A DNA stretch of 64,000 bases from Salinibaculum litoreum (GTDB lineage: Archaea > Halobacteriota > Halobacteria > Halobacteriales > Haloarculaceae). Made by a program: the position numbers and the translations under genes. The notes under the pieces are model-generated. The model ran no database searches and had not been told where the DNA came from. It worked only from the letters and a program-made list of their open reading frames with translations. The DNA is taken from assembly GCA_009789175.1 (NCBI GenBank), contig CP046866.1:2666001-2730000 (forward strand), written 5' to 3'. Positions 33,244 through 63,976 of the stretch are shown here, piece after piece (the first letter of the stretch is position 1; each line of letters starts with the position of its first letter).

Positions 33244-33344
33244 CCACCTTTTTTCACCGGGGCCTCACGCCTCCTCCGAGGCGCTCGACCCCGGGCAAAA
33301 AACGTGGGCGAAAAAAGCCGGTCACTCACTTTGCTCGTGACCGG
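33244..33344. repeat. Structured intergenic element, single copy (locus 1)
   Basis: From left to right: box 1 CCACCTTTTTT (33244-33254); stem-loop 1 with outer arms CGGGG/CCCCG and inner arms CGCCTC/GAGGCG; box 2 with ACGTGGGCG between A-runs (33296-33316); stem-loop 2 with arms CCGGTCAC/GTGACCGG (33318-33344). The same order occurs in the 171-bp array and near 63.9 kb with different stem sequences. Read from the minus strand it lies downstream of the gene at 33402, as a terminator would. Function is inferred, structure is seen. Confidence 0.8.
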
Positions 33345-35519: not shown

Positions 35520-36098
35520 GTGACAGACACGAGCGAGCCAGCGGACGCGACGATACTCGTTGTCGACGATGAGAAGACTGTCGCGGACACCTACGCCCAT
35601 CGACTGCAACACGAGTACCGGATGGAGACGGCATACGGTGGGAAAGCGGCACTGGACATCCTCGCGGAGACGGATGTCGACGTGGTCTTGCTGGACCGAC
35701 GGATGCCGGATATGACTGGCGACGATGTCCTCCGGGAGATTCGCGAGCGCGGCTATGACTGTCAGGTGCTGATGGTCACGGCCGTCGACCCCGACTTCGA
35801 GACGCTGGATATGCCCTTCGACGACTACCTCTGTAAGCCAATCAAACAGGAGCTACTGCTGGGGGCCGTCGAGCAGCAGTTGCGTATCCGCGCCCTCGAA
35901 CGGTTAGGGGAGTACTGTCGGCTGCTCGCCAAGCTGGAGGTCGTCGCCGCTTCGACCACCGCTGACGAGCTTGCGGACAACGACAGATACCAGCAACTCG
36001 TCGCACAGCGCGAGGCTATCGAGGCGGAACTGGCCGGCCACACCGATATTCTCGACGACCTGGCGGCGGCCGTTGCCGAACTCGACCGCGAGCCCTAA
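35520..36098 (+). CDS. Response regulator with HalX domain
   Basis: A 192-residue protein. The receiver domain has the acidic pocket LVVDDEKTVADTY, phospho-acceptor Asp in VVLLDRRMPDMTGDD, the Thr in VTAVDPDF and Lys in LCKPI. The HalX domain follows (about 125-190, LEVVAASTTADELADNDRYQ). HalX regulators are haloarchaeal; output is unknown. The GTG at 35520 is chosen to start MTDTSEPADATI. Its stop overlaps the convergent HTH_10 gene by 4 bp. Confidence 0.88.
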   Translation: MTDTSEPADATILVVDDEKTVADTYAHRLQHEYRMETAYGGKAALDILAETDVDVVLLDRRMPDMTGDDVLREIRERGYDCQVLMVTAVDPDFETLDMPFDDYLCKPIKQELLLGAVEQQLRIRALERLGEYCRLLAKLEVVAASTTADELADNDRYQQLVAQREAIEAELAGHTDILDDLAAAVAELDREP

Positions 36099-37615
36099 TC
36101 GAAACAGGCCGTGAGGAGTTTCCGCTGTGCGACTCGCAGGTGGTGACTGAACGTCGGGGCGGTGATGCCAAGCGACGTGGCGACCTCCGCCGAGTTGGAG
36201 TGACGCGGCGATGCGAAGTACCCGGCTTCGTAGGCTGTCCGCAGTGCAACGCGCTGGCGGTCGGTCAGCTTCTCGTCTAGCACTTTCTGGACGGCTGCGG
36301 TCGTCCGTGCAGGTCGCTCCCGTGTCTGTGTCGCACACAGCTCCACATCGCCGACGGCTTCGGTGAGCCTGTCGAGTAGGCCCCTGACATCCGTCTGCGG
36401 GGCGACATCGGCGGTAACTCGTCCTCCAGTCCCGTCCCAGGTTGCCGAGCGAACTGTCGCGCCCAGCGCGACCAGTCGGACCAGCGGCGAGTCACCCCGC
36501 AGTCGCAGCTCACAGACCCCGCCTTCGGCCAGGTCCTGTACCGTCCGGGCGCGCTCGACTCCAGCGACCTCGGCGGCCGACTCGGTTACTGTGCCCGCGT
36601 CCACGCCGTCGACGGAGACGTACGCCAGTACGACTTCCGTGTCGACGTTTGCGGTTCCTTCGAGTGTGAGGTCACACCCGCTTTCGCTGGCCACCCGTGC
36701 CACCGGTCCGGCCGTGGGACCGACCTCGAACGTCAGTTCGCGTTTCGTGGCGGTATCCATCGCCTGCCGCTGTCGGGTCGCGTGAAGGACGAACCCGACC
36801 ACCCCCCCAATCGTCTCGATGCCAGCGACGCCAGGGTCATCCAGCACTTCCGGCCGGGCGGTGTACAGGCCCAACACGCCGAAGGTCGTCTCACCGTAGG
36901 TCAGCGGCACGGCGATACCAGCATGGACGCCGTGAGCGAACGCTGTCTTGCGTATCTCCTCGGGCACGCTCCCGTCGCTTGCGAGTTCTCGCCGGAGTTC
37001 TCGCTCACCCGCATCGAGCGCGCGCTGCTCCAGGCCGGGAGTGTCCGCCGTCTGGATGGCGTCGAGGACCGGCTCTGCCCCGGCGGCTGCCTGCACGGTC
37101 AGGTCTTCCCGGTCTGTGGACCAGTCGCCCACCCACGCGAGTTCGAACAGGTCCGTGGTCGCCAGTCGCGAGACGACACTCTCCTGCAGCGCTTCCGGAG
37201 TCGTCGCGGTCACTACTGTCCCGAGCAGTTCGCTCACGAGTTCGACCAGCCGGCGGAGCAACGACAGGTTCGTCTCGGCCCGTTTCAGCTCGGTGACCCG
37301 CTCGGCCCACTGTGTCACGTCCCGGACCTCGACGAGCGTCCGCTGGTCGTTCTCGACTGCCCGGAGTTCGATCCAGCGCCGTGTCCCCGGCAGGTACTCC
37401 TCGACGGTCACCGGCTGTTGCCCATCGGCGAGACCGTCCCGGACCCGCTGTGCGAGGTCACCCGGCAGGACCGCATCGAGGGGCTTCCCTTCGATACTGT
37501 CGGTGCGTTCGTCAGCACCGAGCAGTCGCGACACCGGCACCGTCGCCTCGGTGACCGCCCACGTCGTGTCACAGATGAGCCGACCGGTACCCGCACGCGC
37601 CAGCAAATCCTCCAT
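36095..37615 (-). CDS. Bacterio-opsin-activator-like regulator (PAS-GAF-HTH_10)
   Basis: A 506-residue transcription regulator. Domains in order: PAS (about 10-110), a short linker, GAF (about 130-280), a BAT-type domain (about 290-430) and a C-terminal HTH_10 (about 450-505: LTDRQRVALRTAYEAGYFAS and VATSLGITAPTFSHHLRVAQ). This is the Bat architecture; targets and signal are unknown. Its start lies 97 bp from the edge of the 171-bp tandem array, so the array occupies its upstream region. Confidence 0.87.
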   Translation of the reverse strand: MEDLLARAGTGRLICDTTWAVTEATVPVSRLLGADERTDSIEGKPLDAVLPGDLAQRVRDGLADGQQPVTVEEYLPGTRRWIELRAVENDQRTLVEVRDVTQWAERVTELKRAETNLSLLRRLVELVSELLGTVVTATTPEALQESVVSRLATTDLFELAWVGDWSTDREDLTVQAAAGAEPVLDAIQTADTPGLEQRALDAGERELRRELASDGSVPEEIRKTAFAHGVHAGIAVPLTYGETTFGVLGLYTARPEVLDDPGVAGIETIGGVVGFVLHATRQRQAMDTATKRELTFEVGPTAGPVARVASESGCDLTLEGTANVDTEVVLAYVSVDGVDAGTVTESAAEVAGVERARTVQDLAEGGVCELRLRGDSPLVRLVALGATVRSATWDGTGGRVTADVAPQTDVRGLLDRLTEAVGDVELCATQTRERPARTTAAVQKVLDEKLTDRQRVALRTAYEAGYFASPRHSNSAEVATSLGITAPTFSHHLRVAQRKLLTACFD

Positions 37616-37711
37616 CTACGGGAACTGTTCGGCTTACCGACCAAAATAGTATGCCTGCCGGAACCGTGTGCAACCCCGCCCTGCTGACTTCTCGCTTCGC
37701 TCGTTCCCGTT

Positions 37712-39421
37712 TCAATCAGCCGATGCGGATTCCTCGGCAGCCGCCGTGTCGGCGACGACCGGCGTCCGCTCCACGACGGTTCCGCTCCCACCTTTTTCCC
37801 GCTCGGGTTCGCGTAGAGCGCGAACCGCTCGCGGCAAAAACGTGGGCGAAAAAGGCGGGACCTCGCTTCGCTCGTTCCCGTCTCAGTCGGCCGATGCGGA
37901 TTCCTCGGCAGCCGCCGTGTCGGCGACGACCGGCGTCCGCTCCACGACGGTTCCGCTCCCACCTTTTTCCCGCTCGGGTTCGCGTAGAGCGCGAACCGCT
38001 CGCGGCAAAAACGTGGGCGAAAAAGGCGGGACCTCGCTTCGCTCGTTCCCGTCTCAGTCGGCCGATGCGGATTCCTCGGCAGCCGCCGTGTCGGCGACGA
38101 CCGGCGTCCGCTCCACGACGGTTCCGCTCCCACCTTTTTCCCGCTCGGGTTCGCGTAGAGCGCGAACCGCTCGCGGCAAAAACGTGGGCGAAAAAGGCGG
38201 GACCTCGCTTCGCTCGTTCCCGTCTCAGTCGGCCGATGCGGATTCCTCGGCAGCCGCCGTGTCGGCGACGACCGGCGTCCGCTCCACGACGGTTCCGCTC
38301 CCACCTTTTTCCCGCTCGGGTTCGCGTAGAGCGCGAACCGCTCGCGGCAAAAACGTGGGCGAAAAAGGCGGGACCTCGCTTCGCTCGTTCCCGTCTCAGT
38401 CGGCCGATGCGGATTCCTCGGCAGCCGCCGTGTCGGCGACGACCGGCGTCCGCTCCACGACGGTTCCGCTCCCACCTTTTTCCCGCTCGGGTTCGCGTAG
38501 AGCGCGAACCGCTCGCGGCAAAAACGTGGGCGAAAAAGGCGGGACCTCGCTTCGCTCGTTCCCGTCTCAGTCGGCCGATGCGGATTCCTCGGCAGCCGCC
38601 GTGTCGGCGACGACCGGCGTCCGCTCCACGACGGTTCCGCTCCCACCTTTTTCCCGCTCGGGTTCGCGTAGAGCGCGAACCGCTCGCGGCAAAAACGTGG
38701 GCGAAAAAGGCGGGACCTCGCTTCGCTCGTTCCCGTCTCAGTCGGCCGATGCGGATTCCTCGGCAGCCGCCGTGTCGGCGACGACCGGCGTCCGCTCCAC
38801 GACGGTTCCGCTCCCACCTTTTTCCCGCTCGGGTTCGCGTAGAGCGCGAACCGCTCGCGGCAAAAACGTGGGCGAAAAAGGCGGGACCTCGCTTCGCTCG
38901 TTCCCGTCTCAGTCGGCCGATGCGGATTCCTCGGCAGCCGCCGTGTCGGCGACGACCGGCGTCCGCTCCACGACGGTTCCGCTCCCACCTTTTTCCCGCT
39001 CGGGTTCGCGTAGAGCGCGAACCGCTCGCGGCAAAAACGTGGGCGAAAAAGGCGGGACCTCGCTTCGCTCGTTCCCGTCTCAGTCGGCCGATGCGGATTC
39101 CTCGGCAGCCGCCGTGTCGGCGACGACCGGCGTCCGCTCCACGACGGTTCCGCTCCCACCTTTTTCCCGCTCGGGTTCGCGTAGAGCGCGAACCGCTCGC
39201 GGCAAAAACGTGGGCGAAAAAGGCGGGACCTCGCTTCGCTCGTTCCCGTCTCAGTCGGCCGATGCGGATTCCTCGGCAGCCGCCGTGTCGGCGACGACCG
39301 GCGTCCGCTCCACGACGGTTCCGCTCCCACCTTTTTCCCGCTCGGGTTCGCGTAGAGCGCGAACCGCTCGCGGCAAAAACGTGGGCGAAAAAGGCGGGAC
39401 CTCGCTTCGCTCGTTCCCGTC
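37712..39421. repeat. Tandem array, ten 171-bp units
   Basis: Exactly 1710 bp. Each unit has a 72-bp segment copied from the 3' end of the radical SAM gene (23 codons plus stop) and a 99-bp element. The element contains CCACCTTTTT, an 8-bp inverted repeat GGTTCGCG/CGCGAACC with loop TAGAG, the box AAAAACGTGGGCGAAAAAGG and an imperfect stem-loop. By eye units 2-10 are identical; the leftmost 72-bp segment differs at three positions. The native gene end at 39422-39493 is the eleventh coding copy. The period is divisible by 3, which keeps spurious ORFs open on both strands. Confidence 0.97.
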
Positions 39422-40453
39422 TCAGTCGGCCGATGCGGATTCCTCGGCAGCCGCCGTGTCGGCGACGACCGGCGTCCGCTCCACGACGGTTCCCTCGACG
39501 GTCGGGTACTGCTCGACGATTTCCCCTTTGGGTACGTCGCCGTCCTCGACCATCTCCTCTAGGAGCCACCAGGCGAGTTCGAGGTGGTCCGACTTCTCGG
39601 TGTAGAACTCCTCGGGGACACCAAGCTCCTCGAAGCGGGCGGCGTCGACCCAGGTCTTCCCGTAGACGATGGTCCCGTCGTCGGTCACCTCGTCGAAGGG
39701 CCGTTGAATCTGGCGAGCCATCCGCTTGAGCCTGTTGCGGTGCTGGGCGGCGTCTTTGAACACGGAGGTACAGAAGTAGACCTGCTCGTGGTCGCCCATC
39801 CGTTCCAGAATCTCGTGGCTCCCCTCGACGGCGCTCATGTGCCCCTCCTTGCGCTCGTAGCCTTCCTCCTGCATCCGGCGGAAGTTGCCGTCGCTCATCT
39901 CGAACTCGTTGATGTTACAGAAGTCGGCGGCACCCTCGTCGAGGAAGTCGAGGAACTCCTCTTCGGCACGGATACCCGGAATCTCGAAGGCGGGCGTGAT
40001 GCCTTCTTCGCGGGCGATGTACAGGATGTCCTCCCACTCGGTGCCGTGCAGGTCGCCCCACTGCTCGAATGGCGGGTGGAAGCGAATCTCGTCCAGTCCG
40101 GCCTCGGCCAGACGGCGCATGTTCTCGCGGCCGCCGGTGATACCCGTATAGAGGTGGATGTGATGGTCCTCGCCGAATTCGTCTTTCAGGAGTTCGATGT
40201 ATCGGCAGGTCCGCTCCAGCACTTCCTGTGGCTCGCCCCCGGTAATCGAGGAGCCGAGCGCGTCCATCCGGCGGGCTTCGTCGATGATGTCTTGGTCGCA
40301 CTCGACTTTCCGCTCGTTGGCGTAGACGTCGGTGACGTTCTTGCGGTTCTCGCCGAGCGGGCAATAAAAGCAGTCGCGCTGGTCACAGTAGCCATAGACG
40401 AACATGACCATCTTGCCGCCTTTCGCACACTGTTCACAGCCCTTGGAAATCAT
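39422..40453 (-). CDS. Radical SAM protein
   Basis: A 343-residue protein. Cys residues at 6 and 9 (CEQCAKGG) precede the cluster motif C23-DQRD-C28-FY-C31, a CX4CX2C spacing instead of the usual CX3CX2C. SITGGEPQE and EIPGIRAEEEFL follow in the expected places of a radical SAM barrel. The last residues, TVVERTPVVADTAAAEESAS, form a low-complexity acidic tail whose coding DNA is the segment duplicated in the adjacent array. Substrate is unknown; relatives are conserved in haloarchaea. Confidence 0.85.
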   Translation of the reverse strand: MISKGCEQCAKGGKMVMFVYGYCDQRDCFYCPLGENRKNVTDVYANERKVECDQDIIDEARRMDALGSSITGGEPQEVLERTCRYIELLKDEFGEDHHIHLYTGITGGRENMRRLAEAGLDEIRFHPPFEQWGDLHGTEWEDILYIAREEGITPAFEIPGIRAEEEFLDFLDEGAADFCNINEFEMSDGNFRRMQEEGYERKEGHMSAVEGSHEILERMGDHEQVYFCTSVFKDAAQHRNRLKRMARQIQRPFDEVTDDGTIVYGKTWVDAARFEELGVPEEFYTEKSDHLELAWWLLEEMVEDGDVPKGEIVEQYPTVEGTVVERTPVVADTAAAEESASAD

Positions 40454-40561
40454 TCAGTAGGTCACATATCACGCCGAGCCTCAAAAGCCGTGCGAAACAT
40501 CCTGCGGCGAACCTGACGGTTGCCCGAAAACAGATATAGGGGGCTGGCCTAGCCCCGTGTA

Positions 40562-41647
40562 ATGCTGCTGGTGCTGTGTGTCGACCTCGACGACGATATC
40601 GGTCGCAAGACCGATGTCGAGACGCCAGTGGTGGGCCGCGAGGCCGTCGAGGACGCCGCCGTTGCACTCGCGACCGCCGACCCCGAGGACAGCGACGTGA
40701 ACGTCCTCTTCGAGGGCTGTCACCTCGCCGACTCCCTCACCGACGAGCGGGTCGAGGTCGCCGCAGTCACCGGCGTGGACGGCTCGGATGTCGCCGCCAA
40801 CCGTGCGGTCGGCGAGGAGGTCGACCGCGTCCTCGCCCAGCTCGCGACGAGCGAAGACATACGGGCGCTGGTCGTCACCGACGGCGCACAGGACGAGTCC
40901 GTGGTGCCGGTCATCCGCTCGCGAGTCCCCATCGACGGCGTCCGCCGCGTCGTCGTCCGCCAGGCCCAGGACCTCGAATCCATGTACTACACCATCAAGC
41001 AGGTGCTTGACGACCCGGAAACGCGGGGGACGATTCTCGTCCCGCTTGGCATCCTGCTGCTTATCTACCCGCTGACCATCCTCGCGGAGGTGCTTGGCTT
41101 CCCCGGCCCCGTCTTCGGCGTCGCCTCCGCGCTGCTCGGGTTGTACATCCTCGCCCGCGGCTTTGGCGTCGAGGAGTGGCTGGACAGCGCCGTCGCCAGC
41201 GCCCGCGAGGCGCTGTTTACCGGTCGGGTGACACTCATCACCTACGTCGTCGCGTTCGCCCTGTTGATTATCGGCGGCGCAAGCGGGATGGAGACCCTGG
41301 AAGCGACCAGAACCGCCGAGTCCGCAGCCCTCGGGGCTATCGACGTACTCGCTGCGCTCGCCTACGGCTCGGTCCAGTGGATTGCCGCCGCCGGCATCAC
41401 GAGCAGCCTCGGTCGAGTCACTGACGAGTACCTCGCCGGGGAGTTCAAGTGGCGCTACCTCAACGCCCCCTTCTACGTGCTGGCGATTGCCGCCGTCCTC
41501 CACGGGCTGAGCGCCTTCTTCCTCGGGGAAGCTGAACTGGGATATCTCGCCCTGACGCTGACCGGAGGGACCCTGCTCGGACTGGCGAGTACGCTTTCCT
41601 TTGCCGTCGTCGAATCCCGCTGGGAGCGCGACGCCGAGGCGGCGTGA
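40562..41647 (+). CDS. DUF373 family membrane protein
   Basis: A 361-residue protein with an N-terminal soluble domain (about 1-150: MLLVLCVDLDDDIGRKTDVE, VVTDGAQDESVVPVIRSRVP) and about six membrane helices from about 160 onward (GTILVPLGILLLIYPLTILA, TLITYVVAFALLIIGGASGM). DUF373 proteins are widespread in Euryarchaeota without a known role. It is divergent from the radical SAM gene. Confidence 0.88.
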   Translation: MLLVLCVDLDDDIGRKTDVETPVVGREAVEDAAVALATADPEDSDVNVLFEGCHLADSLTDERVEVAAVTGVDGSDVAANRAVGEEVDRVLAQLATSEDIRALVVTDGAQDESVVPVIRSRVPIDGVRRVVVRQAQDLESMYYTIKQVLDDPETRGTILVPLGILLLIYPLTILAEVLGFPGPVFGVASALLGLYILARGFGVEEWLDSAVASAREALFTGRVTLITYVVAFALLIIGGASGMETLEATRTAESAALGAIDVLAALAYGSVQWIAAAGITSSLGRVTDEYLAGEFKWRYLNAPFYVLAIAAVLHGLSAFFLGEAELGYLALTLTGGTLLGLASTLSFAVVESRWERDAEAA

Positions 41648-41688: not shown

Positions 41689-41764
41689 GGGCACGTAGCT
41701 CAGTCCGGACTAGAGCGTCGGACTTCTAATCCGACGGTCGTGGGTTCGAATCCCACCGTGCCCG
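41689..41764 (+). tRNA. tRNA-Arg (TCT)
   Basis: Acceptor stem GGGCACG/CGTGCCC, D arm TAGCTCAGTCCGGACTAGAG, anticodon arm TCGGA-CTTCTAA-TCCGA with anticodon TCT, and T arm with GGGTTCGAATCCC. The discriminator is G, no encoded CCA and no intron. Confidence 0.95.
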
Positions 41765-41961
41765 CTCTCTTTCCGTTCGGGTTGCTTCGGTCACCTCCGA
41801 GACCTACACTCTCCCGAACCGTCGTTCTCCCCCACTGGCTAGAACGGACAGCCAATCTCTATAGCTCACACATCTGTCCCGTCACTCGGTGTGTGAATGC
41901 ACCTCGCAATTCTCTATATATTACCCGGATTTATATCGGATGCCGAGCGCGGTCCAATCGA

Positions 41962-63876: not shown

Positions 63877-63976
63877 CTGACCCGAGGCCGGTGGCCGAGG
63901 GTCAGCCTTTTTCGCCCACGTTTTTCGAGGAGCGGTATGCGACCATCGGGAGCATACCCGACGATGAAAAAGGTGG
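63877..63976. repeat. Structured intergenic element, single copy (locus 3)
   Basis: After the helicase stop: stem-loop 2 with arms CTGACCC/GGGTCAG (63877-63905), box 2 CCTTTTTCGCCCACGTTTTT (63906-63925), stem-loop 1 with arms GGTATGC/GCATACC (63934-63958), and box 1 GAAAAAGGTGG (63966-63976). This is the reverse complement of the layout in the array and at locus 1, with other stem sequences. Relative to the upstream gene the order is the same at all three loci. Confidence 0.82.

Follow-up and report, generated by a model that had tools for sequence, protein, structure and literature searches.

The array of ten tandem units found at the end of a radical SAM gene of Salinibaculum litoreum probably goes back to one insertion, later amplified locally, of a mobile element of the Halobacteria that is small, non-coding and non-autonomous. 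A structure of this kind cannot have originated by chance. The element belongs to a dispersed, folded family, and its members regularly have a copy of the host gene's 3′ end on either side. We describe the array, then the family, and finally the features of gene ends and junctions that bear on its origin.

The array at the end of the radical SAM gene

The window, i.e. the whole stretch of 64,000 nucleotides that was analysed, carries the gene on its minus strand at positions 39422..40453. It codes for a radical SAM protein of 343 aa, identified from the list of open reading frames, a match to PF04055 and an ortholog in Salinibaculum sp. KK48 that is 89% identical. A first, sequence-only reading of this DNA had described ten perfect tandem units of 171 bp, each made of a 72-bp gene 3′ end and a 99-bp structured element located downstream of it. 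This description is borne out. TRF finds a 171-bp period with 99% matches over 37691-39493, and the genome contains ten end-to-end matches of the unit at 100%. Repeat and sequence comparison places the ten units at 37712..39421 (minus strand), identical letter for letter, and the division into gene end and element fits the coordinates throughout. Gene-end copies of 72 bp lie at 37712+171k (k=0..10) and elements of 99 bp at 37784+171k (k=0..9), all on the minus strand. Read along that strand, a unit consists of the 72-bp gene end GGAACC...GCCGACTGA, followed by the 99 bp GACGGGAACGAGCGAAGCGAG...GGTGGGAGC.

The copy that we term proximal (P) corresponds to the final 72 bp of the intact gene (39422-39493, minus strand), with the stop codon at 39422-39424 of the same strand. 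It is followed by the gene-nearest element (39323..39421, minus strand), recognized by pattern match together with nine further copies, one every 171 bp down to 37784. Its hairpin occupies 39393-39421 and its core, TTTTTCGCCCACGTTTTT ... AAAAAGGTGG, spans 39327-39392 and is followed by GAGC, again by pattern match and on the minus strand. At the far end stands the distal gene-end copy (D; 37712..37783, minus strand). It had been singled out as the outermost copy, with three substitutions, and this is what its sequence displays: GCTGATTGAAACGGG is found there against GCCGACTGAGACGGG in the other copies, that is GCT GAT TGA A against GCC GAC TGA G. Two of these changes are synonymous and the third is directly 3′ of the stop. 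Judging from the empty sites of relatives, D may be read as the displaced native end of the gene. Relative to the extent first proposed for the array, homology reaches 21 bp further left, to 37691, where TRF and the sequence reveal an eleventh, truncated element made of the first 21 bp of the hairpin (37691..37711, minus strand).

Two negative statements of the earlier reading also stand. The array is not a CRISPR: short repeats and unique spacers are lacking, and the ten units are identical over the whole 171 bp. Nor is it a protein repeat, as its four open frames stem merely from the divisibility of 171 by three and from a unit devoid of stops in these frames. The identity of the ten units supports the proposal of a recent expansion or homogenization. 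Could it be an artefact, a true locus of one or a few units having been repeated by the assembler? Short reads cannot span ten identical units over 1.7 kb. We deem this very improbable, however: a contig of 3.3 Mb in a 3-contig assembly suggests long reads, the distal end of the array is distinct, and multi-unit versions exist in independent genomes.

The array had been placed upstream of a Bat-type regulator gene, and the domain matches concur. This gene (36095..37615, minus strand; open reading frame list and domain matches) combines GAF, BAT (PF15915) and HTH_10 domains. Its ATG is at 37615, and the roughly 75 bp between it and the array are outside the repeats. In Salinibaculum sp. KK48 both array and element are absent at the radical SAM gene, but this is not a clean empty site for the locus because the downstream gene differs too. 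The radical SAM gene of KK48, like that of several other genomes, has a small gene (M-Y-[LV]-S-H-P-V-R-R...) as its immediate downstream neighbour. The same small gene is met about 4 kb further on in the S. litoreum window, and kinase-like, response-regulator-like and Bat genes intervene there, from just past the array (33.7-37.7 kb). A tRNA-Arg (TCT) gene (41689-41765, plus strand) is found about 1.2 kb past the start of the radical SAM gene; we saw no link with the array.

A dispersed family of folded elements

Members of the family consist of TTTTTNNNCCANNTTTTT, a variable stem-loop and AAAAAGGTGG, and are dispersed among Halobacteria. The core pattern is TTTTT NNN CCA NN TTTTT, then the variable stem-loop, then AAAAA NN TGG. 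A search of related genomes, recommended in the sequence-only reading, recovered the exact pattern in 79 of 145 genomes of the class, while a reversed control gave 0/145. With a looser pattern, 16 of 33 Halobacteria gave matches, and 164 genomes from the rest of the phylum gave none. The idea of a gene end joined to a structured element was sound, but the dispersed family of this element and its P/D design had been missed.

The element possesses terminal inverted repeats (CCANNTTTTT ... AAAAANNTGG). In variant cores the outer CCA/TGG pair is replaced by GTA/TAC, a compensatory change. An alignment of 83 cores shows that the inner stem is kept by two-sided changes (columns 31/49: TA, GC, CG, AT) and, because these changes fall on both sides, it is the fold that is conserved rather than the sequence. 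A hairpin precedes the core, and longer copies add a second one behind an AGCATNC motif. For a 112-nt stretch of the window the fold has z = -4.05. The core alone measures 52-80 bp and the full element up to about 180 bp. As inserted, it is 99 bp long at the array and 47-180 bp elsewhere, with no room for an integrase. Comparison of positions 36000-41000 with the covariance models of Rfam 15 (E up to 1) gave no match, and neither did a search for the element in phage records. Six haloarchaeal megaplasmids carry it.

Diverged copies exist elsewhere in the S. litoreum genome. Within the window, one family member (33244-33315, minus strand) has no gene-end duplication, and another (63908-63976, plus strand) is followed by a 42-bp copy of a host gene end that runs beyond the window edge. 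We also came across three near-identical copies of about 180 bp, located at three places of one genome (L109, L110, L111), with a core of the GTA type and both upstream hairpins. They lack a gene-end duplication, and this type is possibly a recently mobile form.

Gene ends, junctions and the fate of the two copies

Duplication of the host gene end recurs across the class. Eight of 17 same-genome loci that were read consist of a gene end with its stop, the element and a second gene-end copy of 35-164 bp. When about 0.9 Mb of DNA around the radical SAM genes of 80 other haloarchaeal records was scanned for spaced direct repeats, without the element as a reference, most of what came back was the element flanked by gene ends. 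Among 123 elements, which make up 112 loci, 71 are followed, 0-10 nt after TGG, by a copy of the sequence upstream of them; the remaining 52 are without duplication. The duplication spans 21 to at least 160 bp, the upper limit of measurement, with a median of about 60 bp. According to a codon model, a sense-oriented gene precedes 62 of the 71 duplicated elements and an antisense gene only one; in the 62 sense cases what is copied is the 3′ end of the preceding gene. Of 54 cases, 21 have their homology end between -6 and +3 nt relative to the stop codon. In 22 of the 54 it extends more than 15 nt past the stop, so that the distal copy includes part of the element, which would also suit a tandem duplication followed by loss.

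Host genes include those for the radical SAM protein and ornithine carbamoyltransferase; the C-termini of further ones are, on our reading, presumably those of ETF alpha, Spt5 and GyrA. The same genes serve as hosts in more than one genus, and the duplication often starts at another point there, which means repeated events. Some start points are common to different genera and could represent old inherited insertions, not new ones. Arrays of two and three units exist in other genomes, two of them at the radical SAM gene, and the ten units of S. litoreum form the longest array seen.

Which of the two copies is native? Haloferax carries the element at its radical SAM gene too, and there we find an empty site (L039), a filled one (L044) and one with two units (L042). 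In Haloarcula an empty site (L234) faces filled ones (L228 and L231). The tail of the gene in the empty Haloarcula genome (G017) is SNGADAGRATADD; in filled genomes (G116, G107) the gene has SASNPQSEQSAVGD or SASNSQSEQSAVGD as its tail, followed by the element and by a copy ending with SNGADAGRATADD. For ornithine carbamoyltransferase, the gene end and flank of an empty genome (G042) match the downstream copy of a filled one (G060). These three comparisons agree in identifying the downstream copy as the native end: in each of them the 3′ end of the gene has been duplicated and the native end displaced downstream. At the radical SAM gene of yet another genome (G090, L245) the hairpin of the element encodes the last residues of the protein, and the native tail comes after two tandem units.

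These observations bear on a simpler account, in which replication slippage at a gene ending with an old, terminator-like host element would have created an ordinary tandem duplication: gene end and element would be duplicated together, amplified and then decayed at the far end, nothing being mobile. The element is rich in hairpins, which stall polymerase, distal copies often carry a truncated element (21 bp at the array), and some element positions are common to different genera. Yet most duplicated loci comprise a single element with two gene ends; in the three comparisons of empty and filled sites the downstream copy runs into native flank without any element. P and D can differ in stop codon, and even in tail. 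Furthermore, the start of D is always fixed to the TGG end of the element, with a signature that we now detail. Slippage seems unlikely to us for these reasons.

In 16 of 61 duplications TGG is followed by exactly three bases of the gene, then one extra pyrimidine (13 C, 3 T), after which the gene resumes. Among the same 61 junctions this fingerprint is met at offset 2 in three cases and at offsets 4-6 in none. The junction of the array (39323-39326, GAG + C) is one of the sixteen. The stop codon also has a favoured context: GTAG or GTAA at the native stop in 31 of 54 cases against 110 of 529 background genes, a significant excess, though p-values for stop context and junction are optimistic because copies found at one gene do not count as independent. 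GTAR stands before the element in 33/54 hosts, being the host's own stop codon. The radical SAM host of the array ends in CTGA. A preference for GTAG among TAG stops was considered and dropped (25/33 against 70/111, p = 0.21, not significant). Likewise, TAGCAT at the 5′ end of the element as the source of a TAG stop is true for three loci (L103, L210, L244) and is not general. Taken together, fingerprint and stop context suggest the involvement of a dedicated enzyme.

The way the two copies evolve is also informative. Comparison of 57 P/D pairs (2574 coding sites) yields 152 differences, of which 122 affect third positions and 121 are synonymous. D is therefore not a dead duplicate left to decay freely: third positions account for 80% of the differences, against about 50% expected. 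Either both copies were coding until recently, or the live copy has been replaced by imported alleles. This pattern fits a further scenario, that of horizontal spread, where units of gene end and element, travelling perhaps as small circles or with donor chromosomes, would enter the corresponding gene of a different lineage by recombination, making P foreign and D resident, and where the element need not transpose. Indeed, the P tail of Haloarcula, SASNPQSEQSAVGD, resembles SSGQPGSGQSAAGD of Halomicrobium while its D tail is native, and an identical junction is present in several genera. Against this, another process would be needed for the first junction, which arose many times at different points of the same genes, and at many loci, array included, P differs little or not at all from D. 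As a full explanation, horizontal spread strikes us as rather doubtful, if less so than slippage; it is compatible with amplification of a mobile element, as the route by which that element spreads. The similarity of P to D is 89-100% inside one genome; between genomes, copies with a common junction are usually 73-93% alike, much as in concerted evolution. In Haloferax volcanii gene conversion is efficient (PMC8223754).

An insertion followed by amplification could then proceed as follows. The element would lodge in the sense orientation at the 3′ end of a gene, right at the stop codon or close to it, a pattern found in the family and extended here to the locus. It would then separate two gene ends: P, which would remain joined to the gene, and D, the native end moved downstream; the element itself would become a new 3′ UTR. 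Because the family regularly sits between two copies of host gene ends, the gene-end duplication probably came with the arrival of the element, the array being secondary. P and D flank the element as direct repeats, so that chromosome copies may gain or lose whole units of gene end and element through unequal homologous recombination; recombination between the 72-bp repeats would have built the ten found here. Gene conversion or repeated turnover, in line with the similarities just given, would keep the copies alike. Its hairpin and T-tracts probably make the element a portable terminator of the host gene. The TGG/three-base/C-or-T fingerprint and the GTAG/GTAA preference of hosts make it probable that a putative enzyme supplied in trans moves it, a single-strand transposase of the HUH/Y1 type being one guess. 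No fresh insertion of the element was seen, and this weighs against a mobile reading, as do the 52 elements that lack a duplication and the start points common to different genera.

Significance and known systems

If true, this would turn a single odd array into a general phenomenon of Halobacteria, gene ends being recurrently overwritten and duplicated by a folded element. It would account for one class of direct repeats found in their genomes, and provide a natural recombination substrate in polyploid archaea. The junction signature would offer a precise handle for seeking the mobilizing enzyme. We would tentatively go further, at less than even confidence, and see here a hitherto undescribed type of mobile DNA in Halobacteria: a portable, structured 3′ UTR that would recognize gene ends (G-TAR) and be put in by a dedicated enzyme leaving a junction of 3 nt plus pyrimidine and a long, variable gene-end duplication. 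Housekeeping genes would thereby have their stop codons, C-termini and terminators rewritten, and the direct repeats of the element would let copy number expand. No description of the element was found in the literature on intergenic and mobile repeats of haloarchaea or on the element motifs, in a search that covered open-access papers only and hence gives weak support to novelty.

None of its named relatives (SMR, REP, gene-end integrations) matches all features of the element. The SMR-A/B of Haloquadratum walsbyi are likewise haloarchaeal, about 80-110 bp long, with inverted-repeat ends and without a transposase gene; they were described without target duplication and as targeting IS605-type elements (PMC3119063). 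Our element, by contrast, is found at gene ends between long gene-end duplications (71/123 duplicated). REP elements and their RAYT (Y1) transposases offer another parallel, REP being palindromic, extragenic, near gene ends, in tandem clusters and with GTAG beside the hairpin; many of our hosts also have GTAG next to the hairpin, though as their own stop codon. However, REP units are 20-40 bp long, against 52-80 bp for our core alone, and are not bordered by gene-end copies (PMC3733652). Unlike REP, the element also uses GTAA and TGA hosts. MITEs too are short, non-coding, dispersed and structured by inverted repeats, but they have ends in common with a transposon and short duplications of set length, where those of the element vary from 21 to at least 160 bp. 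Integrative elements that enter the 3′ end of genes (tRNA genes, icd) leave the gene intact, displace its native end downstream and create direct repeats. The likeness lies in the intact gene and the repeated 3′ end; the differences are a size of 99 bp with no integrase, and many host genes, each with its own repeat. Finally, target-primed retroelements of the SINE/LINE type have a precise 3′ end, a looser 5′ end and flanking direct repeats of variable length, and in all three respects the element resembles them.
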